A stretch of DNA of 63,115 nucleotides, taken from contig JAOMTZ010000010.1 in assembly GCA_028356125.1 (NCBI GenBank), positions 1 to 63,115 on the forward strand, in the 5' to 3' direction. The translations under genes and the position numbers were made by a program. Origin of the DNA: Candidatus Poseidoniaceae archaeon (lineage in GTDB: Archaea > Thermoplasmatota > Poseidoniia > Poseidoniales > Poseidoniaceae). Within the stretch, counting starts at the first letter, position 1. Each line of letters starts with the position of its first letter. Of this stretch, positions 1-46,513 are shown one piece after another. The notes beneath the pieces were generated by a model that was not told where the DNA came from, did no database searches, and worked only from the letters and a program-made list of their open reading frames with translations.

Positions 1-2029
1 CTGCATAATCTGCATGGAATCTGTGTACATTCCACAGGGTTAGGAACATCTTGCCGTAAGTTTCTCTCACACCATTAGGGTCGAATTTCATTGGATTCCA
101 TGGCGCACCAGCAGTTACCATGTACCATCGTGTGGCATCAGCGCCTTCTCTGTTGAAGTGGTCCCATGGGTCTACGATATTGCCTTTCGATTTGGACATC
201 TTCTTTCCTTCAGCATCTAGAATCAATCCAAGAGATAGACATCTCTTGTAACAAATTGAATCGAAAACAGTTGTACTAACTGCTAGTAATGTGTAGAACC
301 AGCCTCTTGTTTGGTCAACCCCTTCACAAATGTAGTCGATCGGGAAGTTATTCTCGAACTTTCCTTCTTCACCAAATGGATGGTGCCATTGTGCGAATGA
401 TGCACATCCTGAATCGAACCAACAATCCATTACGAAAGGTTCTCTCTTCATGTCACCATTACACTCAGAACAGACTAGTATTGTATCATCAACATATGGT
501 CTGTGTAAGTCTTCAGCAACCGGACTTCCTTCCTTGGCCATGCTAGCCATTTCTTCGGTTGAGCCCACGCAATGTTGGTGGCCACATTCATTACAAACCC
601 AAACAGGCAGAGGTGTTCCCCAATACCTTTCTCGACTGATAGCCCAATCCTTGACATTACGAAGCCATTCTCCGAAACGACCTTCGCCAACCCAATCAGG
701 AGCCCATTCTACTTCTGAGTTGAACTCAAGAAGCATTTCTTTGACAGCAGTCATACGAACGAACCATGAGTCCATTGCATAGTAGAGTAATGGATGGCCA
801 GTTCTCCAACAGTGTGGATAATCGTGGAGATACATCTTTTCTCTGTATAATAATCCAGCATCATGCATCAATTCAATGACAGTTGAATCACAATCTTTGA
901 CATAGCGTCCATCAAGTGAGGGGTGTGTTCCGCCTAGGAATGCTCCATCCATGCCTACAGTATGTTGAGCAGGTAATCCTACTTCCATTCCGAGGTTGTA
1001 ATCGTCTTCACCATACATCACTGCAGTGTGAACAACGCCCGTTCCGTCGGTTGTAGTGACCCAGTCAGCACCAATGACAGTCCAAGCGGTTTCTGAACCA
1101 TCACGGTCTACTGCATCAGGGAACAATGGTTCGTATGAACGACCTATCAAGTCGCTACCAGGAAAGGTTTCAATCTCTTCACAATGGTGGCGAATTACTT
1201 CTTTGAATAGATCTTTAGCCAGAATTAATTCTTCTCCAACCTTTGCTCCTCCGTGACCTTCCCAATTTTCAGGATCCGCTGTAACTCTAACTCTTACATA
1301 TTCAACATCCGGTCCCACTGCAAGTCCTACATTGCCAGGTAGTGTCCATGGAGTTGTAGTCCATGCTAAGATGGAGGCATCGGTGTCTTCGAGTTTGAAT
1401 TTTACATAGACTGATGGTTCTTCCACTTCCTTGTATCCTAGAGCAACTTCGTGACTAGAGTAAGATGTTCCAGTTTGTGGACAGTAAGGCAGAACCTTGT
1501 ATCCTCGATATAATAGTCCCTTTTCGAACATTTTCTTTAGGGCCCACCAGCATGATTCGATGTAAGTATTCTCCAGTGTGACATATGGATTATCAAGATC
1601 GCACCAATATGCCATGCGCTCAGTCATTTCACGCCATGCAGCCTCGTAAGTCCAAACAGATTCACGACATTCTTTGTTGAATTCCTCCATTCCAAAAGCT
1701 TCAATCGCTTCATTACTCATCAAATCTAATCTCTTCTGAACTTCAATTTCTACAGGCAGTCCATGGGTATCCCATCCGCCCTTCCTTTCGACAAAGTTTC
1801 CCTGCATTGTTTTCCATCGGCATACTAGGTCCTTGTATGTTCGAGCAACAACATGGTGAATTCCTGGTTTACCGTTAGAGGTAGGCGGTCCTTCTAAGAA
1901 AATGAAAGGCTCTCCCTCAGAGCGGTTTTCAACACTGACTTCGAATAATTTCTCATCCTGCCAAGTAGAAAGTAGACCGGTTTCCAATGCAACTGAATCC
2001 AGTTCGCTGGTAGTCCTAGGGCTGGCCAT
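1..2029 (-). CDS. ileS: Isoleucyl-tRNA synthetase, N-terminal 676 residues (3' end off window)
   Basis: Class I aminoacyl-tRNA synthetase that charges tRNA-Ile in the cytoplasm. Reading the minus strand from ATG at 2029 gives an uninterrupted frame to the window edge. The HIGH-type motif GKPGIHH is near residues 53-59, followed by the WDTHGLPVE segment. The CP1 editing-domain motif TTTPWTLPGN is near residue 230, and the KMSKS loop (KKMSKSKGN) is near residue 608. These motifs and their order fit IleRS. ValRS is the main alternative, but the WDTHGLPVE and GWFYTLL segments favour IleRS. The anticodon-binding C-terminus, normally another 350 or so residues, lies outside the window. Another ATG at 2036 is out of frame, so 2029 is the likely start. 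The gene is divergent from the giant surface-protein gene. Confidence 0.95.
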   Translation of the reverse strand, partial: MASPRTTSELDSVALETGLLSTWQDEKLFEVSVENRSEGEPFIFLEGPPTSNGKPGIHHVVARTYKDLVCRWKTMQGNFVERKGGWDTHGLPVEIEVQKRLDLMSNEAIEAFGMEEFNKECRESVWTYEAAWREMTERMAYWCDLDNPYVTLENTYIESCWWALKKMFEKGLLYRGYKVLPYCPQTGTSYSSHEVALGYKEVEEPSVYVKFKLEDTDASILAWTTTPWTLPGNVGLAVGPDVEYVRVRVTADPENWEGHGGAKVGEELILAKDLFKEVIRHHCEEIETFPGSDLIGRSYEPLFPDAVDRDGSETAWTVIGADWVTTTDGTGVVHTAVMYGEDDYNLGMEVGLPAQHTVGMDGAFLGGTHPSLDGRYVKDCDSTVIELMHDAGLLYREKMYLHDYPHCWRTGHPLLYYAMDSWFVRMTAVKEMLLEFNSEVEWAPDWVGEGRFGEWLRNVKDWAISRERYWGTPLPVWVCNECGHQHCVGSTEEMASMAKEGSPVAEDLHRPYVDDTILVCSECNGDMKREPFVMDCWFDSGCASFAQWHHPFGEEGKFENNFPIDYICEGVDQTRGWFYTLLAVSTTVFDSICYKRCLSLGLILDAEGKKMSKSKGNIVDPWDHFNREGADATRWYMVTAGAPWNPMKFDPNGVRETYGKMFLTLWNVHRFHADYA

Positions 2030-2061
2030 GGGGCATGCGAGATGCCAACATGTCTTCAAAC

Positions 2062-2100
2062 AGTCGTTCAAATATTTATGATAAAATTCTCATAAACAGA
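2062..2100. promoter_or_regulatory. AT-rich divergent promoter region
   Basis: The 131-bp gap between the divergent ileS and surface-protein starts contains an AT-rich core (AAATATTTATGATAAAATT around 2070-2088). This could hold archaeal TATA boxes facing both ways, about 50-90 bases from each start codon. The call rests on composition and position only. Confidence 0.3.
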
Positions 2101-2160
2101 GGAAAAGGTGATTTCTAGAAGGGGTTGCTTTGAATTACATTGAGTTCATCCAGTGAACAC

Positions 2161-5100
2161 ATGGCGGGGCCAAACCGGAGTGTCAAAGCGTTCGCGCTTA
2201 GTATACTGTTCATACTTTCTGGACCTTTATCACAGGTTATGATGGCAAATGATTCCATCTCTGAGTTAGAATTGAGCGATGACTTTTCACACAGATCTAC
2301 CGGTATTACCGAAGTTACAATTGCAGGGCCTAATGGCAACGGAGTCGGGCCTTCATTAACGATGAACCCTGACCATGCACTACAAACAATTTCCTTTTCA
2401 GTCGCAGCAGGTGATGAAGTTAGAGAGACGGGTTTTAACTGGTCAGATTGGAATGAACCTGGGTTTTCCAAATTAGGTCTGGTCGAGGAAGATGATGGTT
2501 CTCTTATCCTCGGGTTCCAAGGAATTACTTGGGATTTCGATCAAGGTAAAAACGGCTGGACATCCTCAAACTCTAATTTTGGACAGAGAAACTCAGCCAC
2601 AACTTGTGGAATGAGTGGAGGAAATGGTGCATCTTGGTGGACCAGGGGCGGAGCAGTATCTATTACCAGCCCGCAAGTAAACTTAGCTGGACATCAAGGA
2701 CTTGCGGTTCAAGCATGGGTAAAGCAAGGAACATACCAGTGTGGAGAAGAACCAGATACAAATGAGAATTTTTATCTTGAATACAAGAATTCAAACAACG
2801 GCTGGAGTCAGATTCAATACTTGCCTGGTTCGACAACAGGTGGTACAGTAACAAACGTAAATTACAATTTACCTTCTAATGCTTATCACCAGGATTTCCA
2901 AATTAGAGCAAGACAAAACTCCGGTTCAGGCTCATGTTGCGATTATTGGTTCTTTGACGACGTAATTATTCCAGGTACAACTGGAGCGAATTTGACATCG
3001 CCAACTTTTGGATGGTCTTCTAATTCGATGGAGATAATCGATGAGGGAAGATATCCCCCTATGCTGATCGATGCAATAATTCCGTCAGGAGCTTTCCTAA
3101 ATTGGACTGTAATCGATGGAGATACAAATAATCCAATTCCGGGATTAGTTAACCGCATAGGAAAGTTAGTCGACCTTTCTGCAGTAGATTGGAAAACTCA
3201 CAAGTCCTTGAAAATAAACCTTCAATTTGCTTCCAGCGAATCAGGGGATTCGCCTCGTTTATACGGAATCTCAGGAGGGGGAAAAATCCATGATTCCTTC
3301 AACTCGAATCCTGAAGATTCAGGATGGAATCTACATAATTCAACTTGGGACTCATCCGGCCACTCAATTAGTGGCGATTCAACATCAACATTGATATCTC
3401 CCGAATTCGATATTGATTTACCATTTACTTCTTTCAAATTTGACTCTGTAATCGAAGGCGATGTTACAACTTATGTGTCGCTCGATAGGGGCAATTGGTC
3501 AGAATTTAATTCCAGTTCACAAAGATTTGATTTAGAGCGCCCATCATCGGTTATACAATTCAAAGTTGAAGGTTTGAATGGAGTCTGGTCACTGAATAAT
3601 CTAAGATTGCAATTGTATCCTAGTGAATCGGTTGTATCACCTAGGATGGACATCGATGGCGATGGAATCTTTGAATGGGGTGTGACTGGTGAAGGGATTG
3701 GCTCATGGGGTAATCAAGATGTATTCATTGACGGAAATATAAGCTCAACATTCGAGATTGGTTTCAACCCAACATCATGGCATTATCTTCTCATCCCTCG
3801 GAATGCAAAATCTTTCGAAGTATCGGTTGATGATGTTGGAGCAGTTGGCTTAGGAGTGCAAACGATTGCTCTTTGGGTAGGCAATGCGATGGTTGCTCAG
3901 ACGGGAGGTAATGGCTATGTCGATGGTTTACGTCTTAGTTTGAATGAATCAGAGTTGGATCTTCTTAATTTTGAAACTAACAATAAAGCACCTACTGAAA
4001 GTATGGGTGGGACCGATTTTATTTACAGTAAAATCGAATTAATTTCTGATGCTGGAACGCACAGATTAGGTGGTTTAACGATTACTTACGACGCAGAAGA
4101 AACTGTTATTGCTACCGGGATTGATGAAATTGTTTTATCGCTGAATAGAGCAAGATTAAATCCATCGAAGGCAACCAATATCCCTCTTATTTTCAAGGCC
4201 GACTCCGCCTGTTCCCTAGAAGTTAGCATCCTTTCTTCAACATCTTCAGGGGATGTCACTATGGGGCCACTCTCGTGGTCAAACAATTCTGAAACTCTTA
4301 CTCCTTCTCACAAATGGAGAGAAATGACTACTCGTGCTCAAGTGCATGCATCATCTCCTCACCGTTTGATAATGAACATGTATTCTGATGATAGCCAAGC
4401 TATGTGGTTTATTCCACTCAACTTTGGTAATACGGTATCAGTTGGCAATCATGATTCTCTAATATTATCTGATGAAGGATTGTTACACAATATTTCTCAA
4501 GACATTCATGATTTGACTACTAGTTTCAGGACCTCACAATCATTTGAGGATCAAGAATATTTGCGGCTTGAGACTCGTGTTGAACTTGCTAATGGTGTGA
4601 TTTCAATGCCTGCAATAGAAACATGGTCTAGTCCTGCAATCGACAATGATATGCAAATTGAATCCATGGAGATATTCACGGACCGAGGATTAGTCGCTTC
4701 AGATTCGACATACCTAATGGCTGAAGACAATTTGACCTTCAACATTGATATTGGTTTCGAAGATGGTGATGAGGATGACAAGCCTTACGCTGGAGAGTTT
4801 GAGTTACAATTGTTTAGAAACAATGAGTTAATTGCCAACTCAACAGAATATGATGGTGATTTTTGGATCGTAGAATCAGTAGCACCTTTCACAAGTGGAA
4901 ATGTGTCTTATGAAGCGATATTGACTCCACTTACAGGTGGAGGATCAGGAGATACAATGTCCATTAACCGAACGTTCGTTATCGACCCATTAGCTCCTGT
5001 AGTAATAGGTGCAAATATTCGATTCTACGATCATCTTCAATCTTCAACCAATCAGCAAATCATAGTCAACATCACCGACCAACCTGTAATTCCTTCAGAA

Positions 5101-13918: not shown

Positions 13919-14398
13919 CTAATCTTGAACCCTCCTTAAATTGTACTCTTCGCGTGTCATTAGAAGTTTGGCTGGAACGCCGCCCCACACTTGATTCGCA
14001 GGTATGTCTGTTGTGACCACTGCGCCCGCAGCGATAACACAACCGGTATTCAGCCTCACTCCAGCAACAATTGTAGCATTAGCTCCTATCACTACCTCGT
14101 CGTCCACAATTACTGGTTTCCATTTTCCGCCGGAAGGAGGGTGTCTGTCATTTGTTAATGTGGCGTTTGGGCCAATGAATACATTATTGCCGATCACACA
14201 TTTATCGGCAACATAAACCGAACCCTGTATTCTACAATGTTCCCCTACAGTCACATCTCTTCCAATATGAGATAGGGCACCGATATTAGTGCCGTTACCC
14301 ACGTTTTGGCTAGCAACGATACATGGTAGCCATGCGGTTGCTCCATTAGGAAGTTCAACCATTTGGCCACTTAGTTCATTCATTAATTCCCAACTCAC
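13919..14398 (-). CDS. Hexapeptide-repeat N-acetyltransferase (WlbB/WbpD-like)
   Basis: 159 aa made almost entirely of left-handed beta-helix hexapeptide repeats (IGRDVTVGEHCRIQGSVYV, VVIGANATIVAGVRL, CVIAAGAVVTTDIPAN). It has the TNDRHPP loop and a C-terminal VWGGVPAKLL typical of acetyl-CoA-dependent sugar O/N-acetyltransferases, especially those acting on UDP-amino sugars. A role in surface polysaccharide or archaellin glycan synthesis is likely but inferred. The 5' end overlaps the 3' end of the peroxiredoxin gene by 23 bases, indicating cotranscription. The precise acceptor sugar cannot be read from the sequence. Confidence 0.88.
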   Translation of the reverse strand: MSWELMNELSGQMVELPNGATAWLPCIVASQNVGNGTNIGALSHIGRDVTVGEHCRIQGSVYVADKCVIGNNVFIGPNATLTNDRHPPSGGKWKPVIVDDEVVIGANATIVAGVRLNTGCVIAAGAVVTTDIPANQVWGGVPAKLLMTREEYNLRRVQD

Positions 14399-14861
14399 GC
14401 ATTAGCATCGAGACATGACCTTTTGCTTTGACATTGTAACGAGCGAATGTCAAATCACCATTTTCATCTATAACGAATGTTGATCTTGCACATCCCATGT
14501 ACTCTCTGCCGTAGTTCTTTTTCATTCTCCATGTTCCGAATGCCTCGTGAATTGACCCATCTTCGTCCATCAGTAATGGAAAATTTAATTCCTTCTTGTC
14601 GATGAATTTCTCATGGCTTTTGACTGAATCTTTGGATACTCCAAATACTCGATAGCCGTGTTCCTGAAGTCTCGCCATATCGTCACGGAAATCACATGCT
14701 TGTGTTGTGCACCCTGGTGTTGAATCTCTTGGATAGAAATACAGAATTACCTTTGTCCCGCTTTCATTTATCTTCTGTAATTCATGCTCTGTTCCTTTGG
14801 AGTCAAGAGCCTTAAATTGAGGAGATTTGCCTCCTACTTCAAGCGTTATTGCATCTGCCAT
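14376..14861 (-). CDS. bcp: Thiol peroxidase, Bcp/PrxQ-type peroxiredoxin
   Basis: Reduces hydrogen and organic peroxides using thioredoxin-type donors. From ATG 14861 the protein is 161 aa. The active site YPRDSTPGCTTQACDF has peroxidatic Cys51 and resolving Cys56, the C-x4-C spacing of the Bcp/PrxQ class. The later FPLLMDEDG and CARSTFVIDENG strands are also characteristic. A longer frame begins at 14930, but its extra 23 residues do not resemble the family and are not used. It is the first gene of a minus-strand group with the acetyltransferase and flavin reductase-like gene. Confidence 0.93.
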   Translation of the reverse strand: MADAITLEVGGKSPQFKALDSKGTEHELQKINESGTKVILYFYPRDSTPGCTTQACDFRDDMARLQEHGYRVFGVSKDSVKSHEKFIDKKELNFPLLMDEDGSIHEAFGTWRMKKNYGREYMGCARSTFVIDENGDLTFARYNVKAKGHVSMLMRELGINE

Positions 14862-14998
14862 GACATACTCCAAGAAGTGATGGCAAATCAAGGCTTTCAT
14901 TGAGGGTTTGCATGGTAGATAAACTCGCAAGCACGCGTTTATGCAAAATGAATAGTCAGCCGGTCATAGTGCATGAAATTGCACATGGGCATCGGTTG

Positions 14999-15008
14999 TC
15001 TTATAATC
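14999..15008 (+). promoter_or_regulatory. Candidate TATA box
   Basis: TTATAA at 15001-15006 lies 24-29 bases before the ATG at 15030. That is the archaeal TATA-to-start-site distance, so the small gene could be transcribed leaderless from about its own start codon. Based on spacing alone. Confidence 0.35.
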
Positions 15009-15029
15009 CTCCGGAGTAGAACGAAAGAT

Positions 15030-15458
15030 ATGGCCGCTAGTCGTATGTCTAGGAGATGTCGCAAGTTTATGCGGCAAATTCACAAGGCTACGACCAAGTA
15101 TGCTCTTCAGGAAATAGCCTCCAGTGTCCAGAGTGAACTGGACAGGCGCAACCTATCCTACGAAGAAGCCCTCAATCTTGGAAACATCATCCAGAACAGG
15201 GCGGATATCCTCCCTGGTGATGAGATTGTTTACGCTGTTTCTGACAGAGACTCCTATCGTCGAACCCTCGAATTATACCTCAAGGACGGAATACTTACCC
15301 AGGCTGAGCAATTGCTTCTTTGGGAGGAAAGACGCCGCCTTGGAATCGGAGACCAAATTCATAATCATCTGATGGAGCAATTGTTGGCTGCATGGACTAG
15401 GCAGGGCAAAACTGTCCAAATCCATGCTTTCAAAGGAGGGATGACCGATGTCCAGTAG
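15030..15458 (+). CDS. Uncharacterised small helical protein, first of a three-gene module
   Basis: Not recognised. From ATG 15030 it is 142 aa: a strongly basic start (SRMSRRCRKFMRQIHK) followed by amphipathic helices (ALQEIASSVQSELDRRNLS, LYLKDGILTQAEQLLLWEE). There is no signal peptide or membrane helix, so it is cytoplasmic. The TATA-like TTATAA about 25 bases upstream favours this start over 14973; 15045 and 15072 are alternatives. Its last 11 bases overlap the start of the 1,663-aa gene, and that gene's AAAGGAGGG Shine-Dalgarno lies inside it, so the two are translationally coupled. The position suggests a partner of the giant membrane protein. Confidence 0.7.
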   Translation: MAASRMSRRCRKFMRQIHKATTKYALQEIASSVQSELDRRNLSYEEALNLGNIIQNRADILPGDEIVYAVSDRDSYRRTLELYLKDGILTQAEQLLLWEERRRLGIGDQIHNHLMEQLLAAWTRQGKTVQIHAFKGGMTDVQ

Positions 15459-18400
15459 GAAAGTAGCAGTCTCTATTCTGCTGGTATTACTTCTACAGGT
15501 TACTGTGCCGATGATCCCAGTAGATGCTACAAGCGGACGTTCAAATCCAGATTTCAGCGTATCTGTAATGACCCTTTCATCAGGAGGGTCCGTAGACGAA
15601 TCTGGCCAATACAAGTTAGCGCCAGGTGAGCACATCATCCGTATCGTTGTTTCCAACCAAGGTTCAGTTGCGGGTTCGGTTACTCTAAATCTCGATCACA
15701 AAGCATCCGCCTCTTCTCCAGAAACCCAAATCACGTCCATAAACATCAACAATATCGGCGCAGCGTCTTCTTCGAATCCAATTTTAATAAATTGGACTGC
15801 GTTATCTGGCGACGATCAAACAATTTTCGCTCGTGTAGTGTCAATTGATGACCAAGTAACAAATAACAACGAAAGAAGACTCGACTTCGATGTAACGATG
15901 TACCATCTCGGTAATGTCTTGGGCGACAATGTCCCTGGACCAACTCCTGGATTTACAGATTTAAGGTTGAATCATTCGATTCATACTTACGAAGCTACTG
16001 TGAAGAACGATGGAGTAATGGCCATTTCCGCAGTATACGAATTAAACTTCACAGATACCAACAACCCTGCCAATCAAATGTCTTACTGGTCGAATACACT
16101 TACGCTACAGCCAGGCAGCATACTCTACCCTTCCAACGGAGCGACACTCTCTGCATCTTTCGATGCAACCTCATTAATGGGTTCGTGGACTTTGGCTACA
16201 AAGGTATATTTCAATGGGACGGCATGGACTAATACTGTAGTTAGAAGCGTGATAACTGTAACATTCTCTGATTTCATTATTGACGTATCAACGCCGGGAG
16301 ATCGTGCGATTGAACCTGGTGCTACGACTTCTCTGACTTGGATTATTGCTAACATCGGTAGTGCGGATAGCTTGACAGTTGAGTTGGGTTCTGACCAAGG
16401 ATGGCATGATGATGGCCAAGAAGGCAATGTCATTAATCTGGACGCAGGTGAATCTACAAGTTTCGTCGTTCCAGTTACAGTACCTGCTAACGCAGTCAAA
16501 CCAACACTTGAGAACATATACCTGAATCTTTCTAGTTCATCCTCAGAACCGTACACTGCTCGAAGTGTGGCTCATGTAATGGTGGGCGACCAGTTCCAAG
16601 CAACGGTAGTGGCTGAAGCAAATCCAAGAACAGTAACTCCTGCACAAGCTTCAACTCTTGAGTTCGTAATAATCAATTCCGGTAACATCCCGACATCGTT
16701 TGATGTCGAAACGGGGTTCTCCTCATCCGCTGAAAACTGGGAGATTAGTTTGATTTCCGGTCCAGTAACTGATGTTATGGCTGTGGGCGAGAATCGCTCA
16801 ATATTCGTATCAGTAACTCCTGCTCCAATTTCATATCCTCTCGATGCAGGGGAAAGGAATTCAGCAGGTGATAGTCTTTACACATGGCTGTCTGCAACCC
16901 CTTCAAATGGCGGTATACCTGCGATCAACTCTACTCAGATGATTGTTAGGGCTGTTATCGCCGTTGACCCAGGCCCAGAGACCGAATACCTTGTTCTTAC
17001 CGAAGAAGAAGTAAAGGAATCAAACGGTTCAGGGGGAATCGATAGGATTCTCTCTTTATCGGTTGAAGTACGGCATAACCTTGGCGGCGCAGTCACAGGC
17101 GGAGTAGATGCCAACATTACAGTGGCAAATACTACCTTCACTCCATCTAATAACGGCGGCAACAATGAAGTTGCAAGATGGGCTACTAGTATCACGCCAG
17201 CGAATGTTACAAATCTCGAAGTTGGAGAGATTTTCCAATCATGGTTAGCAATCGATGGGCCCGCTGATGAGTTACCTCTTGCAGGCGAGATAGTACTACC
17301 GGTTACAGCCACTCCTATTCTTTCGGCTGGGCAGCAAGCAAATGGCGTTCTTGCAAGCAGTGTCACAAGAAATATCAGAATTGTTATTCCTTCCGTTACT
17401 GATGGGGAAATAATTACCGACGAGATATTGCAGGCAGATGTCGGTAATCTAACCGAATTCCAAATAAAATTAGCGAACACAGGTAATGACTTATCTTCTT
17501 ACAGATTAGTAATTGAAGACGACCTTCCTGAACTGTGGTCTGCAAGTCTTGAAACAGACGACTCATCAAATCCATCGATAGTTCAAAATTTATCGGCTGC
17601 AATGGCAGACCATCCAGTAACTGGCAATGCTCACATCTCAAATGTAACTCTGAAGGTTACTACAGACCCACAAGCACCTGCTGATACTCTGCAGCCTATC
17701 AATATCAGAGTTGAAGATAGAGAAACCGGTGCACTGCTGTCAATGAATACTTTATTGATTAGAGTTGAAGAGTCGATTAATTTCGAGTTAATGCCAACCA
17801 ATCACACAATCGATTTATCCCCTTATGAGACTCCTCTTACTCGAGTTTACATCAATAATACCGGTAACGTAGCGACGACGTTTGCAATATGGCTAGATGA
17901 GTCCATGGAGAATAATGTTGACTTTACAGTTGAGTCGTCAACTGAAGTTGTAATTGCTCCGGGATACACTGACTCTGTTAAGATCAGATTAACTCCAAAC
18001 ATGGAAGCTAGTGCAGATGATGTTCATATGACCACACTCTGGGTCTCTGCCGTTGGTGGAATGAACCTTTCAGCATCCATTGTAGCAAACATAACCGCTG
18101 ATCACCACTTAGAAATCCTAGCTCTAGAAACAATCTCTGTGACGCCAGGCGTCGTAGAAGTAATCGATGTCGAGTTCTCCAACAGTGGTAATCTTGAGGA
18201 AACACTGAATGTTACGGCTACAATAGAAGGCAACTGGACCTATTCATGGAATCAAGAACAGATGGTATTGCCGATAGATGGTTCTTTAGGAAATGATCTA
18301 ACAATTACTATACCTGAATTGGGGGGAGAGGATACTCTTGGAAATGGAGACACTCACAATGTGACAATCAGTCTGTATAACTCCCAAGATGGTAGTTTCC

Positions 18401-38310: not shown

Positions 38311-38586
38311 ATGAGTCGAATTGTTGCAGACGCTAAATCTTCAGATGCAGATTTCATAGTATATTCTACAACCTTCTGTCCGTATTGTGTTGCAGCAAAG
38401 CGGTTATTCGATGCTAAAGGTCTTACTTACCATGAAATTAATTTTGATAATGAACCTGATGTCCGCAATGATGTCGTATCAGAAACAGGCCATCGTACAG
38501 TGCCGGTAATTATCGATAACAGAGGCGAGAATCCAATGTTCATCGGCGGTTTTGATGAGACTAATAGATATCTGAAGTCAGCATGA
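38311..38586 (+). CDS. Glutaredoxin
   Basis: 91 aa thioredoxin-fold dithiol glutaredoxin with active site CPYC (Cys23, Cys26) in YSTTFCPYCVAAKRLF, the cis-Pro TVPVI and the glutathione-type GGFDE motif. It reduces disulfides, probably with an alternative low-molecular-weight thiol or thioredoxin reductase, since these archaea may lack glutathione. No frame disruption. It lies 40 bp after the sugar kinase on the same strand. Confidence 0.93.
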   Translation: MSRIVADAKSSDADFIVYSTTFCPYCVAAKRLFDAKGLTYHEINFDNEPDVRNDVVSETGHRTVPVIIDNRGENPMFIGGFDETNRYLKSA

Positions 38587-38694
38587 GATTGTACACAAAT
38601 CTGGAGTAACCACGGGAGATAATCTCAATTTTGATATCTTTTGCAATCAGGTTGCCCTTATTTTCCTAATTCAGGTTGGGTGGGAAGTATGAAC

Positions 38695-39537
38695 CTAGCA
38701 ACTTGATGGAAGGTCTTTCTTGAGTTCTTCAACAATTTCCTGATATTCGTTTTTCCAAGATTCTGATAAAACATAGCTTTCGATATCTCCATCGTCATAG
38801 TAAGTAAATGTGGGCTTACCTATGTCGCTAACCAGAACCACACATTCATCTCCATCGTCGATTACTAGTCCTCGTTCAAGCGGGTAGAAGTCGGCACAAT
38901 CTTCATCCGTGCATATTTCAAAATGATCGCTCTTTTCGACTAAAGAATAAGAGATATCGTATTCTGCGAATAATGCAGCATAATCAAAGATGCATAAATA
39001 ATCTGAATTTCCATATTGTTTAGAATCTGAGTCGCACCCGTCTTCTTGATATTCCGGTTCATTGATTATCTCGAAACTGTTTTTGTCCTCAAATAAATAC
39101 CCGTAAAGTTCTCCATCAGTGTATCCCCAGTAGGTTGTTCCGTAGAACTCATCCATTGGACCTTTGTTGAAATAACCGTAGATGAAGTAGCCTGCTGCAC
39201 CCCCACCTACAATGAGTATCAATACAATTAACACAGTAGCAAGTGGAGATTTTTTCCTTTTGAAAGATCCAGACATATTGCCGTCATCATCATCATCTTC
39301 ATCAAAATCATATTCCGAGAAATAGTCCTTGTCGAAGTCTTGATTCATACTTCTTGAATGGTTTTGCACGGCAGGGGCTATCCTTTGAACAGGTTCTTCT
39401 TCCCAGATGCGGTAACCGCCTTCGGTCGAATACCAGTGTGTTCCATCATTAGTTTTGTACCAATGAACACCATGTTCATCATTAGGTAGCCACTCTCCCT
39501 CAGGTAAGTCTTCCCAGTTGGAAACGAAGCCACTCAT
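38695..39537 (-). CDS. Membrane protein with a tryptophan-rich N-terminal motif
   Basis: Not recognised; 280 aa from ATG 39537. The cytoplasmic-side N-terminus is Trp/Tyr-rich (LPEGEWLPNDEHGVHWYKTN, then GTHWYSTEGGYRIWEE). An acidic run follows (EDDDDDGN), then one membrane helix (LATVLIVLILIVGGGAAGYF) near residues 100-120, then a Cys-containing acidic ectodomain. The Trp motif resembles the extreme C-terminus of the 1,316-aa surface protein at 41592 (GAWYIRDVDTQEWKKWE). It is the first gene of a more AT-rich region. Confidence 0.72.
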   Translation of the reverse strand: MSGFVSNWEDLPEGEWLPNDEHGVHWYKTNDGTHWYSTEGGYRIWEEEPVQRIAPAVQNHSRSMNQDFDKDYFSEYDFDEDDDDDGNMSGSFKRKKSPLATVLIVLILIVGGGAAGYFIYGYFNKGPMDEFYGTTYWGYTDGELYGYLFEDKNSFEIINEPEYQEDGCDSDSKQYGNSDYLCIFDYAALFAEYDISYSLVEKSDHFEICTDEDCADFYPLERGLVIDDGDECVVLVSDIGKPTFTYYDDGDIESYVLSESWKNEYQEIVEELKKDLPSSC

Positions 39538-39592
39538 GTTTAATCGTAACAATTGTAATTTATTGACCTTTGCAATTAAATTGGCCCAATAT

Positions 39593-40093
39593 TTATTTTT
39601 GGTTTATGTATTCCCATATACACACTAATCCGATTAGAATTAATCCAAGTCCAATTGATGCAACAATAAGTCCTCCAAATGTTGCGCCAGCAATATCCAA
39701 TCCCGAACTATTCAACATTTCGTCAGTCATGAATATCGAAGGATATGCAATTAATACTCCAAGTGTGGTAGGAACTGAGCCGAATAAAATCATAATAACG
39801 CCAATTACAAAGGTTCCTTTACCAAATGTTTCTTCTGCTACATGGCCTCTCATTGCATCTCTTTCATCAGATTTCCTTTTATTGGCCTGTAATCCCAATA
39901 CGGCACATAGCAAACACGCACAATATGCTACTATTCCAGAAGTAACAAACAAGTAATTCAGATTTGAATACATACCTGAGATAAATATTGTAACTACCAA
40001 TAGAAAGAACGATCCAATTGGGATGTCGTCCAATTCTAGCCATATAGGTGCATTTGGTTCTTGTAGCGGAGGTTGATTTCCCTCTACATTCAT
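39593..40093 (-). CDS. Four-helix membrane protein of unknown function
   Basis: Not recognised; 166 aa from ATG 40093 (a TTG at 40123 would add 10 residues). After a short Pro-rich cytoplasmic start it has about four hydrophobic helices (SFFLLVVTIFISGMY, VTSGIVAYCACLLCAVLGL, VIGVIMILFGSVPTTLGVLI, IVASIGLGLILIGLVCIWEY). A charged loop between helices 2 and 3 contains KRKSDERDAMRGH. It lies downstream of the distal archaellin-like pair on the same strand. Confidence 0.65.
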   Translation of the reverse strand: MNVEGNQPPLQEPNAPIWLELDDIPIGSFFLLVVTIFISGMYSNLNYLFVTSGIVAYCACLLCAVLGLQANKRKSDERDAMRGHVAEETFGKGTFVIGVIMILFGSVPTTLGVLIAYPSIFMTDEMLNSSGLDIAGATFGGLIVASIGLGLILIGLVCIWEYINQK

Positions 40094-40164
40094 ATTCTTG
40101 CGAAATTGAAGTAGATTTATCAATCTTGTACCGCCAAATACGATTATTCAATGATAATTTGTAT

Positions 40165-40806
40165 TCAGATAATCGGTGAACCGATTTCACGACCATTGGA
40201 TAAAGTCAAAACCTGGTGTGTCGACATTCCATTGGGGATGTGTAAGTATAGATTAGCACTAATTCCTTCATTGTCGAGATATACAGGTCCACATTCATCA
40301 CTAAATGGTTCATCCTGTGTTCCTCCATCTAACGTGAACATGTATATTCCTCCTGGTTGGAAATTATCGACCATCGTGTGTCCATCAGAACCTGGTCCAG
40401 GAGTGCCTACTTCCCATACGAAAATGGGTGATCCTACCTGTCCAGTTGCAGTACTTGAGTCTCCTAAGACTGCTGCGCGGAAATTGAATGTCCCATCTTT
40501 ATCTGTACAAGTCAAGACATAACTAACATCCACCCGGTTTACTGCTTCACCTGCTGGCCCAAACTCCATCATGAATAGCATGTCGTCAAAGGAGTCGTAT
40601 ACCCATGCTCCTGTAATAATGATTGTATTTACATTCTTCATTCTGGCATCTTCAGCAGTTCTGTCAGTTCTTTGAGTGATTTTTTCGGTCACACCAATTA
40701 GAGTTGCAACGATAATTGAAGATACCAATATCATAGCGATAAATATGATTAGAGCACCGGTGCCTGCAGTGCAAGAATCATCAGATTTGAGTTTTGATCT
40801 ACGCAA
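40165..40806 (-). CDS. Distal archaellin-like protein A (TTG start)
   Basis: 213 aa archaellin/type IV pilin-like protein about 11 kb from the main cluster. The N-terminal helix (TAGTGALIIFIAMILVSSII) matches the archaellin core, and the C-terminus (LYLHIPNGMSTHQVLTLSNG) parallels the VEGGGSTYE ending of arlB1/2. At the predicted cleavage site the residue at -1 is Cys instead of Gly, so processing may differ. There is no ATG before the helix and an in-frame stop lies just upstream, so TTG 40806 is the start. GTGAGGG, overlapping the previous gene's stop, supplies the ribosome site. The pair may encode alternative filament or minor tip subunits. Confidence 0.75.
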   Translation of the reverse strand: MRRSKLKSDDSCTAGTGALIIFIAMILVSSIIVATLIGVTEKITQRTDRTAEDARMKNVNTIIITGAWVYDSFDDMLFMMEFGPAGEAVNRVDVSYVLTCTDKDGTFNFRAAVLGDSSTATGQVGSPIFVWEVGTPGPGSDGHTMVDNFQPGGIYMFTLDGGTQDEPFSDECGPVYLDNEGISANLYLHIPNGMSTHQVLTLSNGREIGSPII

Positions 40807-40815
40807 TTAAATCCC

Positions 40816-41421
40816 TCACATCAGGTCTTGCCCTTCATACGGTGTTCCACCGATGTTCAAAAACCGCTCTAGAGTTCTTCCTTTGTCTACAATAATAATC
40901 AATGTGGCTTCTTCTGTATTTTCTAAGTCACAATGATATGCACCAGTTTTATCAGGGTCATCCACATTGTTATCAAGTTCGAGTAATATGCGATATACAG
41001 TTCCTGGGGTGAATTGAGTTACATCAGCAACTGTTTCTCCATCTCCCTGCATGGTTGTTGCAGTGGTGAAGTCACCTTCATCGAAAAGGACATTGTTATT
41101 GCCATTAGGGAGGCACATCAAAACCCATGAAACACTGGTGTCAGGTACAGGGTCTCCAACATAAGGTAACTCGAATACAAGGTGAAGTTGATCTTCTGTT
41201 CCTAAGCCGGAGATCTCAAGTATCGAAATATGAACAATGCCTTGGATATTTGGAGTAGTCTGTTGTGCATCAGATTTTGCTTCTGTAAATATATTTGCAC
41301 CTACGCTTAAGATTAGAGCTGAAACAATTGCGCTAACCATTACGAGTCCAATGAATATAATCATTGCACTTGTGCCGGCTTCGGCTCTGTTGTTCTTAAC
41401 TACGCGGCGCATGCTTTTCAT
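40816..41421 (-). CDS. Distal archaellin-like protein B
   Basis: 201 aa. A basic leader (MKSMRRVVKNNRAEAG) precedes an archaellin-type hydrophobic helix (TSAMIIFIGLVMVSAIVSAL). The domain after it has the archaellin pattern of short beta strands and ends LIIIVDKGRTLERFLNIGG. The residue at the expected -1 position is Ala rather than Gly. It overlaps nothing and is followed 9 bases later by gene A, so the two form an operon. The upstream gap (41422-41591) is shared with the divergent giant gene and includes the tRNA-like repeat. Could be an adhesive pilin; the archaellin assignment rests on helix and C-terminal similarity. Confidence 0.75.
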   Translation of the reverse strand: MKSMRRVVKNNRAEAGTSAMIIFIGLVMVSAIVSALILSVGANIFTEAKSDAQQTTPNIQGIVHISILEISGLGTEDQLHLVFELPYVGDPVPDTSVSWVLMCLPNGNNNVLFDEGDFTTATTMQGDGETVADVTQFTPGTVYRILLELDNNVDDPDKTGAYHCDLENTEEATLIIIVDKGRTLERFLNIGGTPYEGQDLM

Positions 41422-41481
41422 TTTGCGGTCGTAGCCCGACGCAATTTAACCTTCTTACTAGATTTAGGATATTTGCCAAAA

Positions 41482-41548
41482 TTGAGTGAGAAAAAGACAA
41501 ACTGTGCTCGTTTGAATGGCGTTGTCATGGTGCTCGCGCCGGGGTGCG
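41482..41548. repeat. Imperfect direct repeat, left copy (tRNA-Glu 3' end plus flank)
   Basis: These 67 bases align with 45757-45825 at about 52 of 69 columns by eye (two one-base gaps). They include an exact 14-base match (41530-41543, GTGCTCGCGCCGGG) to the tRNA-Glu acceptor stem and start of the T-arm, in the same orientation. This is the expected position of the far attachment site of an element inserted at the tRNA 3' end. Confidence 0.65.
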
Positions 41549-41591
41549 TACTATGAGTTAATTTTTTACCATTACTAGTTTTGGTAACTGT

Positions 41592-44500
41592 ATGAAGAGA
41601 TTAACCCTTGTGGTTTTCACTATCATGATTTTTAGTAGTAATCCTTTTCTAGAATCTTACGAACATCTTGATGCAAATGTAGACTCGAGATCTATTTATC
41701 CATCAAACCCTGATTTCTCAAATTGGACCTTAAGTCCAAGTTCAGGTACATATCATGGAGGGACTGATATCCAACTAAACGATAGTACAAACCCCGATTT
41801 ATTCGATGTAATTACCCCACGATTTTACGCAGAATCCAAGATTAATAATCTCACATACACCGGGGTTTACAAACATGCTGTATCTCTTGATTCTGATGGT
41901 ATATTGCATGGCCTATATACTTCTTCTTTAGGCACTGAAAATAATCTGACATATCTGAAATATGATGGTAATAACTGGAACTTTTCGGTCATTATAACAA
42001 ATGTTGAACAAGCATCTCTTGCATTAGATAGTACAGGTAATATTCATGTTTTGTTTACAACAAGAACTGGCTTAGATAATGATTACAATAATCGTAGTGT
42101 TAAATACGCACACTCGAATGATGGAATGAATTGGAATATCTCAGATATAGCTAATGGTATAAGTCCTTACGGTCCTGTAATAAAGGTCGATAATTCGGGT
42201 AAATTACATACTGCTTACTGGTCGAGTAGTAGTATTAGGCATGATACCTCTACTGATGGTGTTAATTGGTCATATGGAGGGACTGTGAGTTCGATGAATA
42301 CTCTTCGTTTTGACTTTGAACTTGATTCAAATGGGAATCCATTTTTCTTAGTAAGCAATAATGGATTGAAACTTGTAACTCACGATGGTAATTCTTGGTT
42401 CGAAGAGCAAGTACTCTCAACAACTCCCATTACTCTAGGGTCACTAGCGATTGACGATTCAGGGTATGCTCATGTTGTATATTGTGATTCCGAATTATAT
42501 TTTAATTACACATCTAATCTTGAGGGATATTGGAGTGGTTCAGTAATCGATACAAAATGTGATGGTGCGGGAAATAATCAACACAACTCTATCGAAATAG
42601 ATGTTAGTGGAGTGATTCATGTGTCTTATGGTCACAATGATGGATATGAATCCAATGGTGGTTCTGGAGATGCACTAAATCATGCAACTTTTGTTAAAGA
42701 GAATTGGATAATCAACACAATAATTTCTAATTCCTCATCAAATCCGCCCGCAATACATGATTTTCCAATGGTAGTAGATGATTCATGTGATGTACATTTC
42801 ATTGTTTCAATTCCGGGTGGACCTGAAGAATTTAGATATATAAAATCCAAATCTGAAACTACCGATGAATATGGTTGTGATAATAAGATAGAATTTAAAT
42901 CACTGCTGGAAGGGAATGGAGAATCGCTGATTCTTACAGATAATACTCATCCTGATTCTTCTCTAGGATCCATCGCTGCAAGCACAACAGCATACGTAGA
43001 TGATGACAAGAATCTACATTTGACTTACGCAGGGTTTGAGGGGATGTTGAATTATTCAATCTTTGATGGAGAATCATGGATTACTAATACAGTTGATGTG
43101 AATAGTTCTCTTCTTCACAGCGCTTGTTTGGGAGTTGATAGTGCCGGAAATATACACATTGCATATGCGTCGGGCGTTTCTTTGAATTTCCGGTATGCAA
43201 CATCATCGGATGGAATTAATTGGGAAATTACCAATCTCGTAGCTGCTTATAGGACTGGTGAATCTTGCTCTCTTGTAGTAGATTCAATTGACAATGTACA
43301 CATTGCTTATTCACAAAATGCAGGACAACCAACGGAGTTCATGTATGCAAAGAGAACTTTGAGCGGAGATAATAATGCCAATTGGTCACAATATACAATT
43401 GATATGGACACAGGTAAGGATGGCCAAATTTCACTACAAGTAGACTCTTCGAACAATCCACATGTTGTTTATTTTGGTAACACGAATGGGGACGGAAGCG
43501 AGAAGGCACTAAGATATGCATCTTCTACCGATGGCTATAATTGGACAAGTACTATCGTCGACAGTTATAGTGGTCAAGGTGCTTATGTTGGCAAATACAA
43601 TTCTCTTGTAATTGATTCAGATGATAACTTACATGTATCCTATTCGCAATATAACACTGCTCCTGGTTATCCTCAAGGGATACTTTATGCAAACAAGATG
43701 GTCGGACAATCTTGGACTACTACACTACTTTACCCGGGCGAAAGGATGGGTAGCATGAATCATATTGATACCGATTCCTCTGGAAATATCTACATCATAT
43801 CTCAAATGAGGAATGAAACCAGTTGTATAGGTGATAGTTTGTCAATTTATGATGGCCAATCTTGGTCTCATGATTCAATATCGAGCATTTGTTCAGACTA
43901 CTCCTACGTTTCTTTCTCAATCGATAGTTCAGACCACTTACATATGACTGGCATGGGACCAAATGATGTTCTGCAATATCGATATAATTCACCAATGTAT
44001 CGTGTGACTATTGGATTTGGAGATTATGGAAACGTCACCGGTACAGTTGTCAATGACGCATTAATTGAATTTACATCCCCACCGGGTCCATTCAATGGAG
44101 ATACTGTAAATCTAACTTTGATTAACTGGAAAGGTATTACGATTGAATTACCATTTAATTTCACATATCTAGATGGAGATTTAGATGATGATGGTGTTGC
44201 TAATCTGGTTGATTTATGTCCCAATACATTGGAAGGAGATGCTGTTGACTCGGATGGATGTTCAGAGGTACAGAAGGATTCGGATTTGGACGGAATACAT
44301 AACGAAATTGATGATTGTCCGAACACAGGGGGTAATTCTTCCATTGAATCATTAGGGTGTCCTGACGCAGATGGTGATGGTTATTGGGACTTTGATGATG
44401 CCTTCCCAGAAGATAGCAATGAATGGGAAGATTCAGATGGTGATGATGTTGGAGACAATTCTGATGAATTCCCGAGTAATCCTTCGGAATGGATTGATTC

Positions 44501-45542
44501 AGATGGCGATAGCATTGGCGACAATTCCGATGCCTTTCCCAATAATTCGTCAGAATGGAATGATTCGGATTTAGATGGAGTTGGTGACAATTCTGATGCT
44601 TTACCAAATGATCCGTCTGAAACTGTTGATAGTGATGGAGACGGAATAGGTGACAACTCGGATGCTTATCCCTACCTCAATAATTTCTTGGATTCAGATG
44701 GCGACACCGTACCTGATTTCATGGATGATTTCCCTTCAGATATGACGCAATGGAGGGATTCAGATGGAGACGGATGGGGTGATAACCCCAATGGTGTCAA
44801 TCCTGACCAATGCCCCTTCGTGTCTGGTGTGGAATTGGGGGCAATGCCTGATGGCTCACCTGGAATCGGTTGTCCCCCTCCTGTTTTAGACGAGGATGGT
44901 GACGGTATTGAGGATGGAAATGACGAGTGTCCGAGAACGGACGAATTACTAAATGTCGATACTAACGGCTGCGCAATTAATCAAAAAGATACAGATGATG
45001 ATGGAGTCAATGATTCCATAGATAAGTGTCCTTCCACAATTTATCTGGGATTTGTTGATGAAGAAGGATGTTTACTTGATGAGGACGATGATGGTATTTT
45101 TGATTTGAATGATCGTTGTTTAGAGACGATCCCTGGCAGTGAAATAGATGAAAATGGATGTGAAATTACTATTGAATCTACGAAAGATGATGATGTGTCA
45201 TTTACTAGTAGGATAACTGATGGAGGAACTGAATCAATACTCTCTCTAATCGTAATTTTTGTATTAGTGCTAACATTTTCGATATCGCAGACAAATTATG
45301 GAGCTGCAAAATTACCAAAATCATTTCAATGGATTCAGGTGATTAAGAGTAAGAAACTAGTTGGAAATAAAATCAAGAAAACTTCTCCTGTTATAGAAAC
45401 TAAAGGTAATGAACATCCAGACAAAGATTTGAAGGGAGAAATTAATCCAACTGACAATTATGAATACCTGGAATTCCCGTCGGAAACAGGTGCTTGGTAC
45501 ATCAGAGATGTCGATACTCAAGAATGGAAAAAGTGGGAATAA
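41592..45542 (+). CDS. Giant surface protein: two beta-propellers, Ca-binding TSP3-type repeats, Trp-motif tail (1,316 aa)
   Basis: A signal peptide (LTLVVFTIMIFSSNPFL) is followed by two propeller-like halves (about residues 90-425 and 440-800). They are built of repeats with Asp-box flavour such as SLDSDGILHGLY, ALDSTGNIHVLF, HSNDGMNW and SSTDGYNW. Residues about 860-1180 are thrombospondin-3-like calcium-binding repeats (DSDGDDVGDNSDEFPSNPSE and similar). One membrane helix (SLIVIFVLVLTFSISQ, about 1213-1233) precedes a basic cytoplasmic tail ending with a Trp-rich motif, like the N-terminus of the 38695-39537 gene. Codon use is clearly AT-rich compared with the giant genes elsewhere. Probably a binding or adhesion protein on the cell surface. 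Confidence 0.85.
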   Translation: MKRLTLVVFTIMIFSSNPFLESYEHLDANVDSRSIYPSNPDFSNWTLSPSSGTYHGGTDIQLNDSTNPDLFDVITPRFYAESKINNLTYTGVYKHAVSLDSDGILHGLYTSSLGTENNLTYLKYDGNNWNFSVIITNVEQASLALDSTGNIHVLFTTRTGLDNDYNNRSVKYAHSNDGMNWNISDIANGISPYGPVIKVDNSGKLHTAYWSSSSIRHDTSTDGVNWSYGGTVSSMNTLRFDFELDSNGNPFFLVSNNGLKLVTHDGNSWFEEQVLSTTPITLGSLAIDDSGYAHVVYCDSELYFNYTSNLEGYWSGSVIDTKCDGAGNNQHNSIEIDVSGVIHVSYGHNDGYESNGGSGDALNHATFVKENWIINTIISNSSSNPPAIHDFPMVVDDSCDVHFIVSIPGGPEEFRYIKSKSETTDEYGCDNKIEFKSLLEGNGESLILTDNTHPDSSLGSIAASTTAYVDDDKNLHLTYAGFEGMLNYSIFDGESWITNTVDVNSSLLHSACLGVDSAGNIHIAYASGVSLNFRYATSSDGINWEITNLVAAYRTGESCSLVVDSIDNVHIAYSQNAGQPTEFMYAKRTLSGDNNANWSQYTIDMDTGKDGQISLQVDSSNNPHVVYFGNTNGDGSEKALRYASSTDGYNWTSTIVDSYSGQGAYVGKYNSLVIDSDDNLHVSYSQYNTAPGYPQGILYANKMVGQSWTTTLLYPGERMGSMNHIDTDSSGNIYIISQMRNETSCIGDSLSIYDGQSWSHDSISSICSDYSYVSFSIDSSDHLHMTGMGPNDVLQYRYNSPMYRVTIGFGDYGNVTGTVVNDALIEFTSPPGPFNGDTVNLTLINWKGITIELPFNFTYLDGDLDDDGVANLVDLCPNTLEGDAVDSDGCSEVQKDSDLDGIHNEIDDCPNTGGNSSIESLGCPDADGDGYWDFDDAFPEDSNEWEDSDGDDVGDNSDEFPSNPSEWIDSDGDSIGDNSDAFPNNSSEWNDSDLDGVGDNSDALPNDPSETVDSDGDGIGDNSDAYPYLNNFLDSDGDTVPDFMDDFPSDMTQWRDSDGDGWGDNPNGVNPDQCPFVSGVELGAMPDGSPGIGCPPPVLDEDGDGIEDGNDECPRTDELLNVDTNGCAINQKDTDDDGVNDSIDKCPSTIYLGFVDEEGCLLDEDDDGIFDLNDRCLETIPGSEIDENGCEITIESTKDDDVSFTSRITDGGTESILSLIVIFVLVLTFSISQTNYGAAKLPKSFQWIQVIKSKKLVGNKIKKTSPVIETKGNEHPDKDLKGEINPTDNYEYLEFPSETGAWYIRDVDTQEWKKWE

Positions 45543-45751
45543 TTGTTTTAATCCCATATTTGCTATCCAAACCACCTTCTAACCGTCCTGAGCCCACCCT
45601 AAAAACGTAAAACACCGTCAATGCAGAAGGTTTTTTTAAAATAAAAGACAGTATAACAATTCTCGGTTTAAAGGTCCCCGTTCCAAACACGGGCATTGCA
45701 CAGGGTAGCGTCTAAAACAGGGGGTCGAAGCACTTTGTTGTTTGAAAACCA

Positions 45752-45797
45752 CCCGTTTGAGTGAAAAAAGGGAAAACAGTACCCCGTTTGAGTGAAA
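45752..45797. repeat. 15-bp direct repeat pair next to tRNA-Glu
   Basis: CCCGTTTGAGTGAAA occurs at 45752-45766 and 45783-45797, a 31-bp period ending 11 bases from the tRNA 3' end. Degenerate versions occur at the same spacing in the left copy (41481-41520), so the doublet predates the duplication. A 9-bp inverted repeat (AGCACTTTG at 45729-45737, its complement at 45803-45811) brackets it. Such arrays can be recombinase arm sites. Confidence 0.5.
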
Positions 45798-45825
45798 GTA
45801 GTCAAAGTGCTCGCGCCGGGATTCG
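45757..45825. repeat. Imperfect direct repeat, right copy (intact tRNA end)
   Basis: Counterpart of 41482-41548. It spans the 3' end of tRNA-Glu (45807-45820 is the exact 14-base core) and about 50 bases downstream of the tRNA. Confidence 0.65.
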
Positions 45826-45880
45826 AACCCGGGTCGCCGGGATGAAAACCCGAAATGATGGGCCACTACACCACGCAAGC
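45808..45880 (-). tRNA. tRNA-Glu (UUC)
   Basis: The minus strand folds into a full cloverleaf. The acceptor stem GCTTGCG pairs with CGCGAGC (one G-T pair), with discriminator A. The D-arm contains GTGTAGTGGCCCATCA. The anticodon stem TCGGG pairs with CCCGG around loop TTTTCAT, placing TTC at positions 34-36. The T-arm is CCGGGTTCGAATCCCGG. CCA is not encoded. The gene is the boundary of the candidate islet at 41482-45825. Confidence 0.95.
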
Positions 45881-45904
45881 AGACTAACCCTCGGCGAACG
45901 CTGA

Positions 45905-46513
45905 TTATTGATGAATGTTGGGGTCGACGGCCAAGTTACTCCACCATCGGTATGCTAACCATGTTAGGCCCGCTCCTATGATGAGCAATGCCCCGATTAG
46001 CACCTCTCTGTCCAGTAGCCACCATATCGCATCTAGGGCTTTATCGCCGTACATTCCAACTAGTATTGCTTCGAGCCCGAACCTCAATCCGCGACCGATT
46101 ATACCCGCGATGATGAAAGGTTTCATTTTCATCTCACCCATGCCTGCTGCCCAGCCAAATACCTTGTATGGTATCGGTGAGAATGCTGCGATGAATATTC
46201 CTACAGTTCCATACCTTAGTGTCAAAGCTTCAATCTTTTCGAGATGCCTTTCTGCTTTGAATCGGCTGAACAATGCCCTTCCCCACTTTTTACCAATGTA
46301 ATAACCAACAACACTTCCAAGCACGCTTGTGATAGTTATTACGCCCCATAACCATAGGACAAGTGCCGAATCTCCTTGGGCGTTAACCAGCATTGGTAAA
46401 AATAGCAAATCAGGGGGTACTGGCTGGATGATTGCCTCGGTGAAAGACATGGCTCCTAAACTCAGGGAACCAAATCCGTCGAACCATTCGACAATCGTCT
46501 CTTTCCACGACAT
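45905..46513 (-). CDS. DedA/VTT-family membrane protein (YqaA-like)
   Basis: 202 aa with about five hydrophobic segments and the VTT/SNARE-associated pattern: FTEAIIQPVPPDLLFLPMLV, GSVVGYYIGKKWGRALF and FSPIPYKVFGWAAGMGEMKM. DedA-family proteins act as lipid scramblases or transporters of undecaprenyl/polyprenyl phosphate or phospholipids in the cytoplasmic membrane. ATG 46513. The 3' end is 25 bp from the tRNA-Glu 5' end, on the same strand. Confidence 0.88.
   Translation of the reverse strand: MSWKETIVEWFDGFGSLSLGAMSFTEAIIQPVPPDLLFLPMLVNAQGDSALVLWLWGVITITSVLGSVVGYYIGKKWGRALFSRFKAERHLEKIEALTLRYGTVGIFIAAFSPIPYKVFGWAAGMGEMKMKPFIIAGIIGRGLRFGLEAILVGMYGDKALDAIWWLLDREVLIGALLIIGAGLTWLAYRWWSNLAVDPNIHQ

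Follow-up and report, generated by a model that had tools for sequence, protein, structure and literature searches.

A cassette with a probable surface gene and no recombinase, inserted at the 3' end of tRNA-Glu in an uncultured marine archaeon

The window analysed here is a stretch of 63,115 nucleotides from a Candidatus Poseidoniaceae archaeon, and its positions 41544-45806 are a cassette inserted at the end of a tRNA-Glu gene. Quite probably this stretch of 4.26 kb is a mobile but non-autonomous gene cassette brought into the 3' end of the tRNA gene by site-specific recombination, and it is best explained as the newest of a stack. A direct repeat, an empty site, the stacking of cassettes, ends shared between cassettes and the presence of one cassette in two species at two loci were all observed. 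We infer in addition that a recombinase made elsewhere acts in trans and that the benefit of the arrangement lies in the turnover of surface proteins. The locus is made up as follows.

38311-38586, plus strand: glutaredoxin (Grx) gene, the left conserved anchor
38695-41421, minus strand: probably older variable block p285-p176-pilin-pilin, 84.7% identical in nucleotides to that of the closest relative, G041
38695-39552, minus strand: p285
39593-40123, minus strand: p176
40165-40806 and 40816-41421, minus strand: two archaellin/pilin-like genes
41482-41529, plus strand: former 3' flank of the tRNA, arm-like TTGAGTG...CGTTTGAATG, aligning with the sequence that adjoins the intact tRNA of G041
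41530-41543, plus strand: left footprint, a displaced copy of the tRNA-Glu 3' end, with the core GTGCTCGCGCCGGG followed by GTGC
41544-45806: inserted cassette, about 4.26 kb without its own core copy, missing in G041
41592-45542, plus strand: single cargo gene of 1316 aa, the only large open reading frame of the enclosed DNA
45755-45797, plus strand: right-end arm repeats, GTTTGAGTGAAA at 45755-45766 and 45786-45797
45807-45820, plus strand: core copy that completes the tRNA gene
45807-45880, minus strand: tRNA-Glu(TTC), intact according to ARAGORN, the insertion target
45905-46513, minus strand: VTT-domain membrane protein gene, the right conserved anchor

The original prediction had held that a direct repeat copying the tRNA end encloses this DNA, with about 52 of 69 columns matching. 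The alignment of 41482-41548 with 45757-45825 in the same orientation was reproduced at exactly 52 of 69 columns and could be lengthened to 41551 and 45828 (54 of 72 columns), and the exact 14-base identity of 41530-41543 with the tRNA-Glu 3' end at 45807-45820 was verified. The local alignment score of the repeat was 33, against a maximum of 14 over 2000 mononucleotide shuffles of the left intergenic region, and each part of it exceeded all 2000 shuffles by itself (flank, 20 against a maximum of 14; tRNA part, 16 against 11). When the left intergenic region was compared with its own genome (41 contigs, 65% complete), only the region itself and the right copy were found, the latter at an E value of 3.4e-5. 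The 14-mer with three mismatches allowed occurred twice with 1.4 occurrences expected, which is not significant, and the significance of the repeat therefore resides in the exact match and the flank taken together. The crossover may lie anywhere within the 14-bp repeat. The claim that the enclosed DNA is AT-rich was likewise borne out, the GC content of the cassette (38.4%, against 44.1% in the remainder of the window) being below that of all 589 sampled windows of equal length. The repeat is thus where it had been placed, but the extent of 41482-45825 did not hold: the island is bigger, with a variable interval that starts where the glutaredoxin gene stops (38586) and reaches to the tRNA (45806), and the inserted unit is 41544-45806.

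An empty site, which a cassette inserting at this position would lead one to expect, was found at base resolution in G041, whose proteins are close to those of the window (98.8% amino acid identity for PPase, 97.4% for the GHMP kinase and 95.6% for Grx). In G041 p285, p176 and both pilin genes are present, the giant gene is missing and the tRNA follows about 0.1 kb past the last pilin. Window positions 41380-41551 align there through the flank into the tRNA 3' end, and positions 45807-45925 align from the tRNA onward. Flank and tRNA are contiguous in G041, and 41544-45806 is therefore a unit that is either present or absent, with its edge in the tRNA 3' end. G041 could also have lost the cassette rather than never having had it. 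The p285-p176-pilin-pilin block is itself missing at the locus in the relatives examined except G041 and is probably an older, earlier insertion; a search of 38587-41480 for its left footprint returned nothing above shuffles besides the known copies.

Throughout the genus the gene order Grx, tRNA-Glu, VTT, PIN is kept wherever a contig spans the locus, and the distance separating the tRNA from the end of the Grx match ranges from 13 bp to about 24 kb. It measures 13 bp in G013, 37 bp in G021, 80 bp in G004 and 512 bp in G023, about 410-420 bp in G003, G024, G016, G017 and G011, about 1.4-1.5 kb in G018, G010, G006 and G019, and about 24 kb in G012. The long interval of the latter (contig G012:C14; L033, L053) holds genes for a maltose-type ABC transporter, an amylase and a phosphorylase-like protein in addition to stacked cassettes. 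Of the 23 genus contigs carrying tRNA-Glu(TTC), 8 stop within 650 bp on the side of the cassettes, compared with 1 on the opposite side, and the 99.3% identity between two contigs of G019 begins only at a point 12 bp outside the tRNA end. Both observations are as expected from mixed populations and are indirect. The assemblies are incomplete (65% for the genome of the window, G000), so that breaks and mixtures may occur.

The product of the cargo gene is a probable cell-surface protein, judging from its predicted features: a signal-like N-terminus, nine VDxxGNxHV-type repeats (residues 143-785), twelve DxDxD calcium-type repeats (861-1171) and one hydrophobic segment (1211-1239) followed by a short tail. 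The only Pfam match was TSP_3, below the cut-off. Partial homologues of the N-terminal part (residues ~440-790) were found in 108 of the 292 genomes of the order, and the best matches to the TSP3 region elsewhere are different genes. No match of the genome to PF00589 or PF00239 lies on the contig of the window. The prediction of a single gene without recombinase, probably for a surface protein, is accordingly upheld, and with one large reading frame and no integrase gene by Pfam, PF00589 or PF00239, the cassette departs from autonomous archaeal integrative elements.

Footprints of the same kind occur in other members of the genus. The pattern KGCTCGYGCCGGG gave 33 matches in the 27 genus genomes searched (24 with a match) and none when reversed as a control; these matches include the intact tRNA-Glu(TTC) and tRNA-Glu(CTC) genes. 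Besides intact genes, exact-core footprints are found in G000, G022, G014, G018:C24, G019:C18 and G015, the last of which also has a longer partial tRNA copy, and a contig ending in the core (G042:C20) may be a broken intact site. The core is followed by GTGC in four of these six footprints (G000, G022, G018:C24 and G019:C18) and by GTATGC in G014; G015 deviates. The exact arm motif GTTTGAGTRAAA lies within 110 bp of 10 of the 26 core sites listed, in nine cases 22-24 bases from the core, and is missing at the other 16. Elsewhere in the genus loci it was met once in 1,124,071 strand-bases, at a place preceding a degenerate core in G012. The right end of the window cassette is 97% identical to that of G008 over 66 bp. 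A scan of genome contigs with the pattern gave at least 119 stretches, and among the 80 matches listed all but two were in unrelated bacteria and were taken as chance. G022 and G014 have a common 165-bp patch (95.2% identity) before their footprints, which was left out as evidence because host divergence was not computed.

Two further structures were seen at such sites. In G012 (L033:18069-18133) a unit of about 60 bp with only the right-end arm is situated between a degenerate core and the intact tRNA, and is perhaps an empty cassette. In G018:C42 (L149:1-150) a long inverted repeat with arms of about 20 bases, acacggacattgtatagggta, stands just before a degenerate tRNA-Glu footprint.

Other cargo between repeats of the same type, also anticipated by the original prediction, is present in G012, G014, G018 and G019, and tandem arrays are found in a second genus, g19. 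Here the tRNA-Glu(CTC) core KGCTCGTACCGGG had 65 matches in 39 of 62 genomes, with one match for the control. Fourteen chosen g19 stretches were read. One of them (L392), from the finished genome G052, has its exact KGCTCGTACCGGG match inside a gene, which was rejected as a chance match, and the other 13 were counted. Their 26 cores comprise 7 tRNA genes and 19 others, and the latter carry a class A end (AATCTCGCAAGTTCCGTCCGGACAATTCCAA) in 10 cases, a class B end (ATACTATCTGCAAATACCATGGTA) in 7 and neither in 2. One contig of G067 has four cores in a row. Where the class motifs occur without an exact core they come after degenerate cores (4 of 4, by eye).

Movement of a cassette is apparent from a 1.94-kb unit with a 456-aa gene and a RidA-like gene, which lies between partly degenerate cores in both G012 and G018:C24. 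Over 1940 columns the two copies (G012, 13934-15871; G018:C24, 9414-11353) have 95.5% identity, compared with 76.2% in the VTT-TatA region of these two genomes. The G012 copy adjoins tRNA-Glu(TTC). Contig G018:C24 is collinear, at 70-80%, with the tRNA-Glu(CTC) contigs of G015 and G019, for which reason its copy is assigned to the tRNA-Glu(CTC) locus, the tRNA itself being off the contig. As judged by these alignments, one sister cassette has moved between species and occupies two different tRNA-Glu loci, in agreement with the exchange of cassettes at tRNA-Glu that had been proposed. A comparison of G009 with G015 was abandoned, the G015 sequence next to the tRNA being given as N.

Besides the giant gene of the window, the cargo of the genus includes collagen-like proteins in G014, G018 and G019 and a TSP3-esterase gene with RidA in G012 (collagen-like and G012 cargo judged from first residues). 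The g19 cassettes carry long proteins of secreted appearance, and Pfam analysis of three of them gave Ig/PKD domains, RCC1 repeats and weak PKD matches below the cut-off; methyltransferase-like and transporter-like genes were recognized by eye. In G168:C3 (L381:8489-11431) a cassette between two cores holds a cytosine methyltransferase-like gene and has the look of a restriction-modification unit. The proposal of a route for swapping surface variants is supported insofar as surface-type cargo is frequent, but it has to be widened to other cargo (RidA, cytosine methyltransferase-like). As transporter-like genes are carried too, the term surface cassette describes a tendency and not a rule.

Candidate recombinases were sought in 145 genomes of the family. 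Of the 27 among them that belong to the genus of the window, 21 have a PF00589 match, mostly one. The matches of G000, G016 and G024:C2 share the same conserved neighbourhood, the one in G000 being a lone gene, and are taken as the host XerA. Extra matches in G018:C16 (L309) and G024:C58 (L310) come from phage-like contigs and were discounted as contaminants, and contig G136:C59 (L317) resembles phage or other assembly contamination. None of the cassette contigs of the genus has a PF00589 or PF00239 match, from which movement in trans is suggested. The expectation of a trans-acting tyrosine recombinase was partly realized: 7 of 292 genomes of the order, but none of the genus of the window, have integrases of a distinct group, A1, whose members are 34-49% identical to the first one. 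In six of these genomes the integrase gene, after a small open reading frame, immediately adjoins the 3' end of tRNA-Glu (TTC or CTC), and in the seventh its contig has no tRNA. In L320 (G139:C67) a complete-looking tyrosine integrase element of 3.3 kb occupies 122-3380 at tRNA-Glu(CTC). About 3.3 kb from the tRNA the element closes with a class A end in which 6 of 31 bases differ and the core is strongly decayed; its two ends are also marked exactly by the 8-mer TTACGTAC, for which 0.18 occurrences were expected. A surface-type protein encoded by L320 is located past this class A end and was excluded from the cargo of the integrase element. The shared end is the best pointer to mobilization in trans, and for class A only: cassette ends in common with an integrase-bearing element were seen for class A of g19, and no such partner among the genus of the window. 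The enzyme of the sister genus is probably the tyrosine integrase that sits at tRNA-Glu, from an element with the class A end. Two exact patterns for attP-like or joined forms had no matches (0 and 0) in viral contigs. In the same family, integrase genes are also located at or near tRNA-Ala beside a purA-like gene (L324 and L327; L328 likewise, no tRNA being found) and at or near tRNA-Arg (L323 and L329), as further tRNA targets.

PF00239 matches were obtained in 23 of the 145 genomes, 6 of these in the genus of the window, and are accompanied by related structural-type proteins in L383, L419 and L420. The genome of the window has such a virus-like element of 4.1 kb at tRNA-Asn (G000:C1; L419:5109-9273), with a 315-aa serine recombinase, small structural-type genes and, at 9260, a 14-bp exact repeat of the tRNA-Asn 3' end. 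Relatives of this element are found at tRNA-Ala in G014 and at tRNA-Glu(CTC) in G133, where a 4.1-kb serine recombinase element lies between two cores. No relatives of two proteins of the virus-like elements, the 377-aa recombinase and one of 234 aa, were found in viral contigs or phage records.

In the mechanism that we propose, the cassette core GTGCTCGCGCCGGG, with GTTTGAGTGAAA arms to one side of it and GTGC to the other, would recombine with the tRNA-Glu 3' end, which has the identical sequence. The incoming core copy would complete the tRNA and the old 3' end would be displaced to the far side, and a circular form would be expected to read right arm GTTTGAGTGAAAGTAGTCAAA, core, GTGCGTAC across its junction. 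As each new cassette would enter beside the tRNA, a stack should result with the newest nearest to the tRNA, and stacking could proceed at both tRNA-Glu genes, TTC and CTC, which have a common 3' end. The enzyme might instead be the serine recombinase of the small virus-like elements, for which tRNA 3' ends serve as entry sites too. Their 14-16 bp repeats are like that of the window, and one of them lies at tRNA-Glu(CTC) in G133 and another at tRNA-Asn in the genome of the window; we nevertheless hold this reading to be unlikely, since class A and class B ends are unlike the L383 end, the GTGC end of the window is similar to it in three bases only and, within the genus of the window, tRNA-Glu was not seen to carry an element of this type.

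That the cassette is the remnant of an autonomous integrative element or provirus, which lost its integrase and moves no longer, is less probable still. Integrase-bearing elements at tRNA-Glu do exist in the order, as the A1 group demonstrates, but different cassettes of the genus have common ends, unlike content and no PF00589 or PF00239 match on their contigs, and the 1.94-kb cassette moved recently relative to the divergence of its hosts. Little weight can be given to homologous or illegitimate recombination anchored in the tRNA and a conserved neighbour, without any site-specific enzyme: the tRNA and the VTT side are indeed conserved among donors and recipients, and identity at the point of entry amounts to only 14 bp, but the same cassette occurs at two loci with different neighbours, and arms at a fixed distance and left ends are conserved. 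Casposons produce target duplications of this kind at tRNA 3' ends, and an exact 14-bp repeat is what the window has; an insertion of a casposon-like transposon was nonetheless rejected and is highly improbable, as the cassette has no terminal inverted repeat (an end-to-end score of 7, reached by 810 of 1000 shuffles) and its conserved arms lie inside one end only. Chance similarity next to the tRNA, for which it could be said that the 14-mer with three mismatches is not rare, is ruled out for practical purposes by the shuffles, the empty site of G041 and the exact-core footprints in five other members of the genus. Recombination at the tRNA-Glu 3' end by a site-specific enzyme is the reading that we retain.

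Genomic islands and tycheposons at tRNA genes are already known. Bacterial additive flexible genomic islands with repeats of tRNA fragments are described, in the parts of the reports available to us, for Actinomarinales (PMC7771536), Alteromonas (PMC4119200) and Methylophilaceae (PMC10872708): small gene cassettes are stacked at a tRNA with direct repeats of its 3' end, and island size varies between close relatives. The Methylophilaceae repeats are the last 20 bases of tRNA-Lys (PMC10872708), and envelope genes are frequent in the Actinomarinales islands (PMC7771536). The archaeal cassettes are alike in stacking at the tRNA, in the 3' end direct repeat at the far edge of the insert and in variation of size, with presence and absence among close relatives (G041 being empty) and several cores in a row. 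The additive islands are bacterial, however, and conserved arm or end sequences are not described for them in those same parts; the archaeal cassettes have defined ends, two tRNA-Glu isoacceptors as targets and an integrase element with a common end. Tycheposons of Prochlorococcus and others, as far as the excerpts consulted go (PMC10872708, PMC11389934), share the marine planktonic setting, the boundary at a tRNA gene and the variable cargo, but have a tyrosine recombinase, whereas the cassette of the window is one gene long and has none by its single large reading frame and the lack of PF00589 on the contig. Charybdis clade P comprises elements of about 4.6 kb, some of them integrated beside Poseidoniales tRNA genes with an integrase or recombinase (PMC12324425). 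The cassette of the window differs from these in having neither recombinase nor structural module; the L419 element of the same genome is like clade P by architecture only. Integrons, known from archaea as well (PMC9668308), resemble the cassettes in their arrays of recombinase-free units at one site and in their working; in the cassette of the window the core consists of tRNA sequence, and insertion is into a tRNA gene. Among the papers that full-text searches on this and adjacent topics brought up, none treats cassettes of this kind in these archaea, as judged by titles and the beginnings of abstracts, the nearest report being the Charybdis preprint. What is new is an archaeal, recombinase-free and array-forming variant, often with surface-type cargo.

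Taken more broadly, these arrays could represent a tRNA-based archaeal analogue of the integron, an idea that we put forward tentatively. The 3' end common to both tRNA-Glu genes would serve as the capture site for recombinase-free cassettes of one to a few genes, stacked in ordered arrays. Rare integrases specific for tRNA-Glu, arriving and disappearing with other elements, would mobilize these cassettes in trans between species, and surface proteins of abundant marine archaea would be turned over as a result. The cassettes described here offer a concrete, sequence-defined route for the gain, loss and exchange of large surface genes in uncultured marine archaea. They also make prediction possible, since metagenomes can now be screened for cassette ends. 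If the cassettes are indeed moved in trans, these archaea would be following an integron-like strategy built on a tRNA gene.
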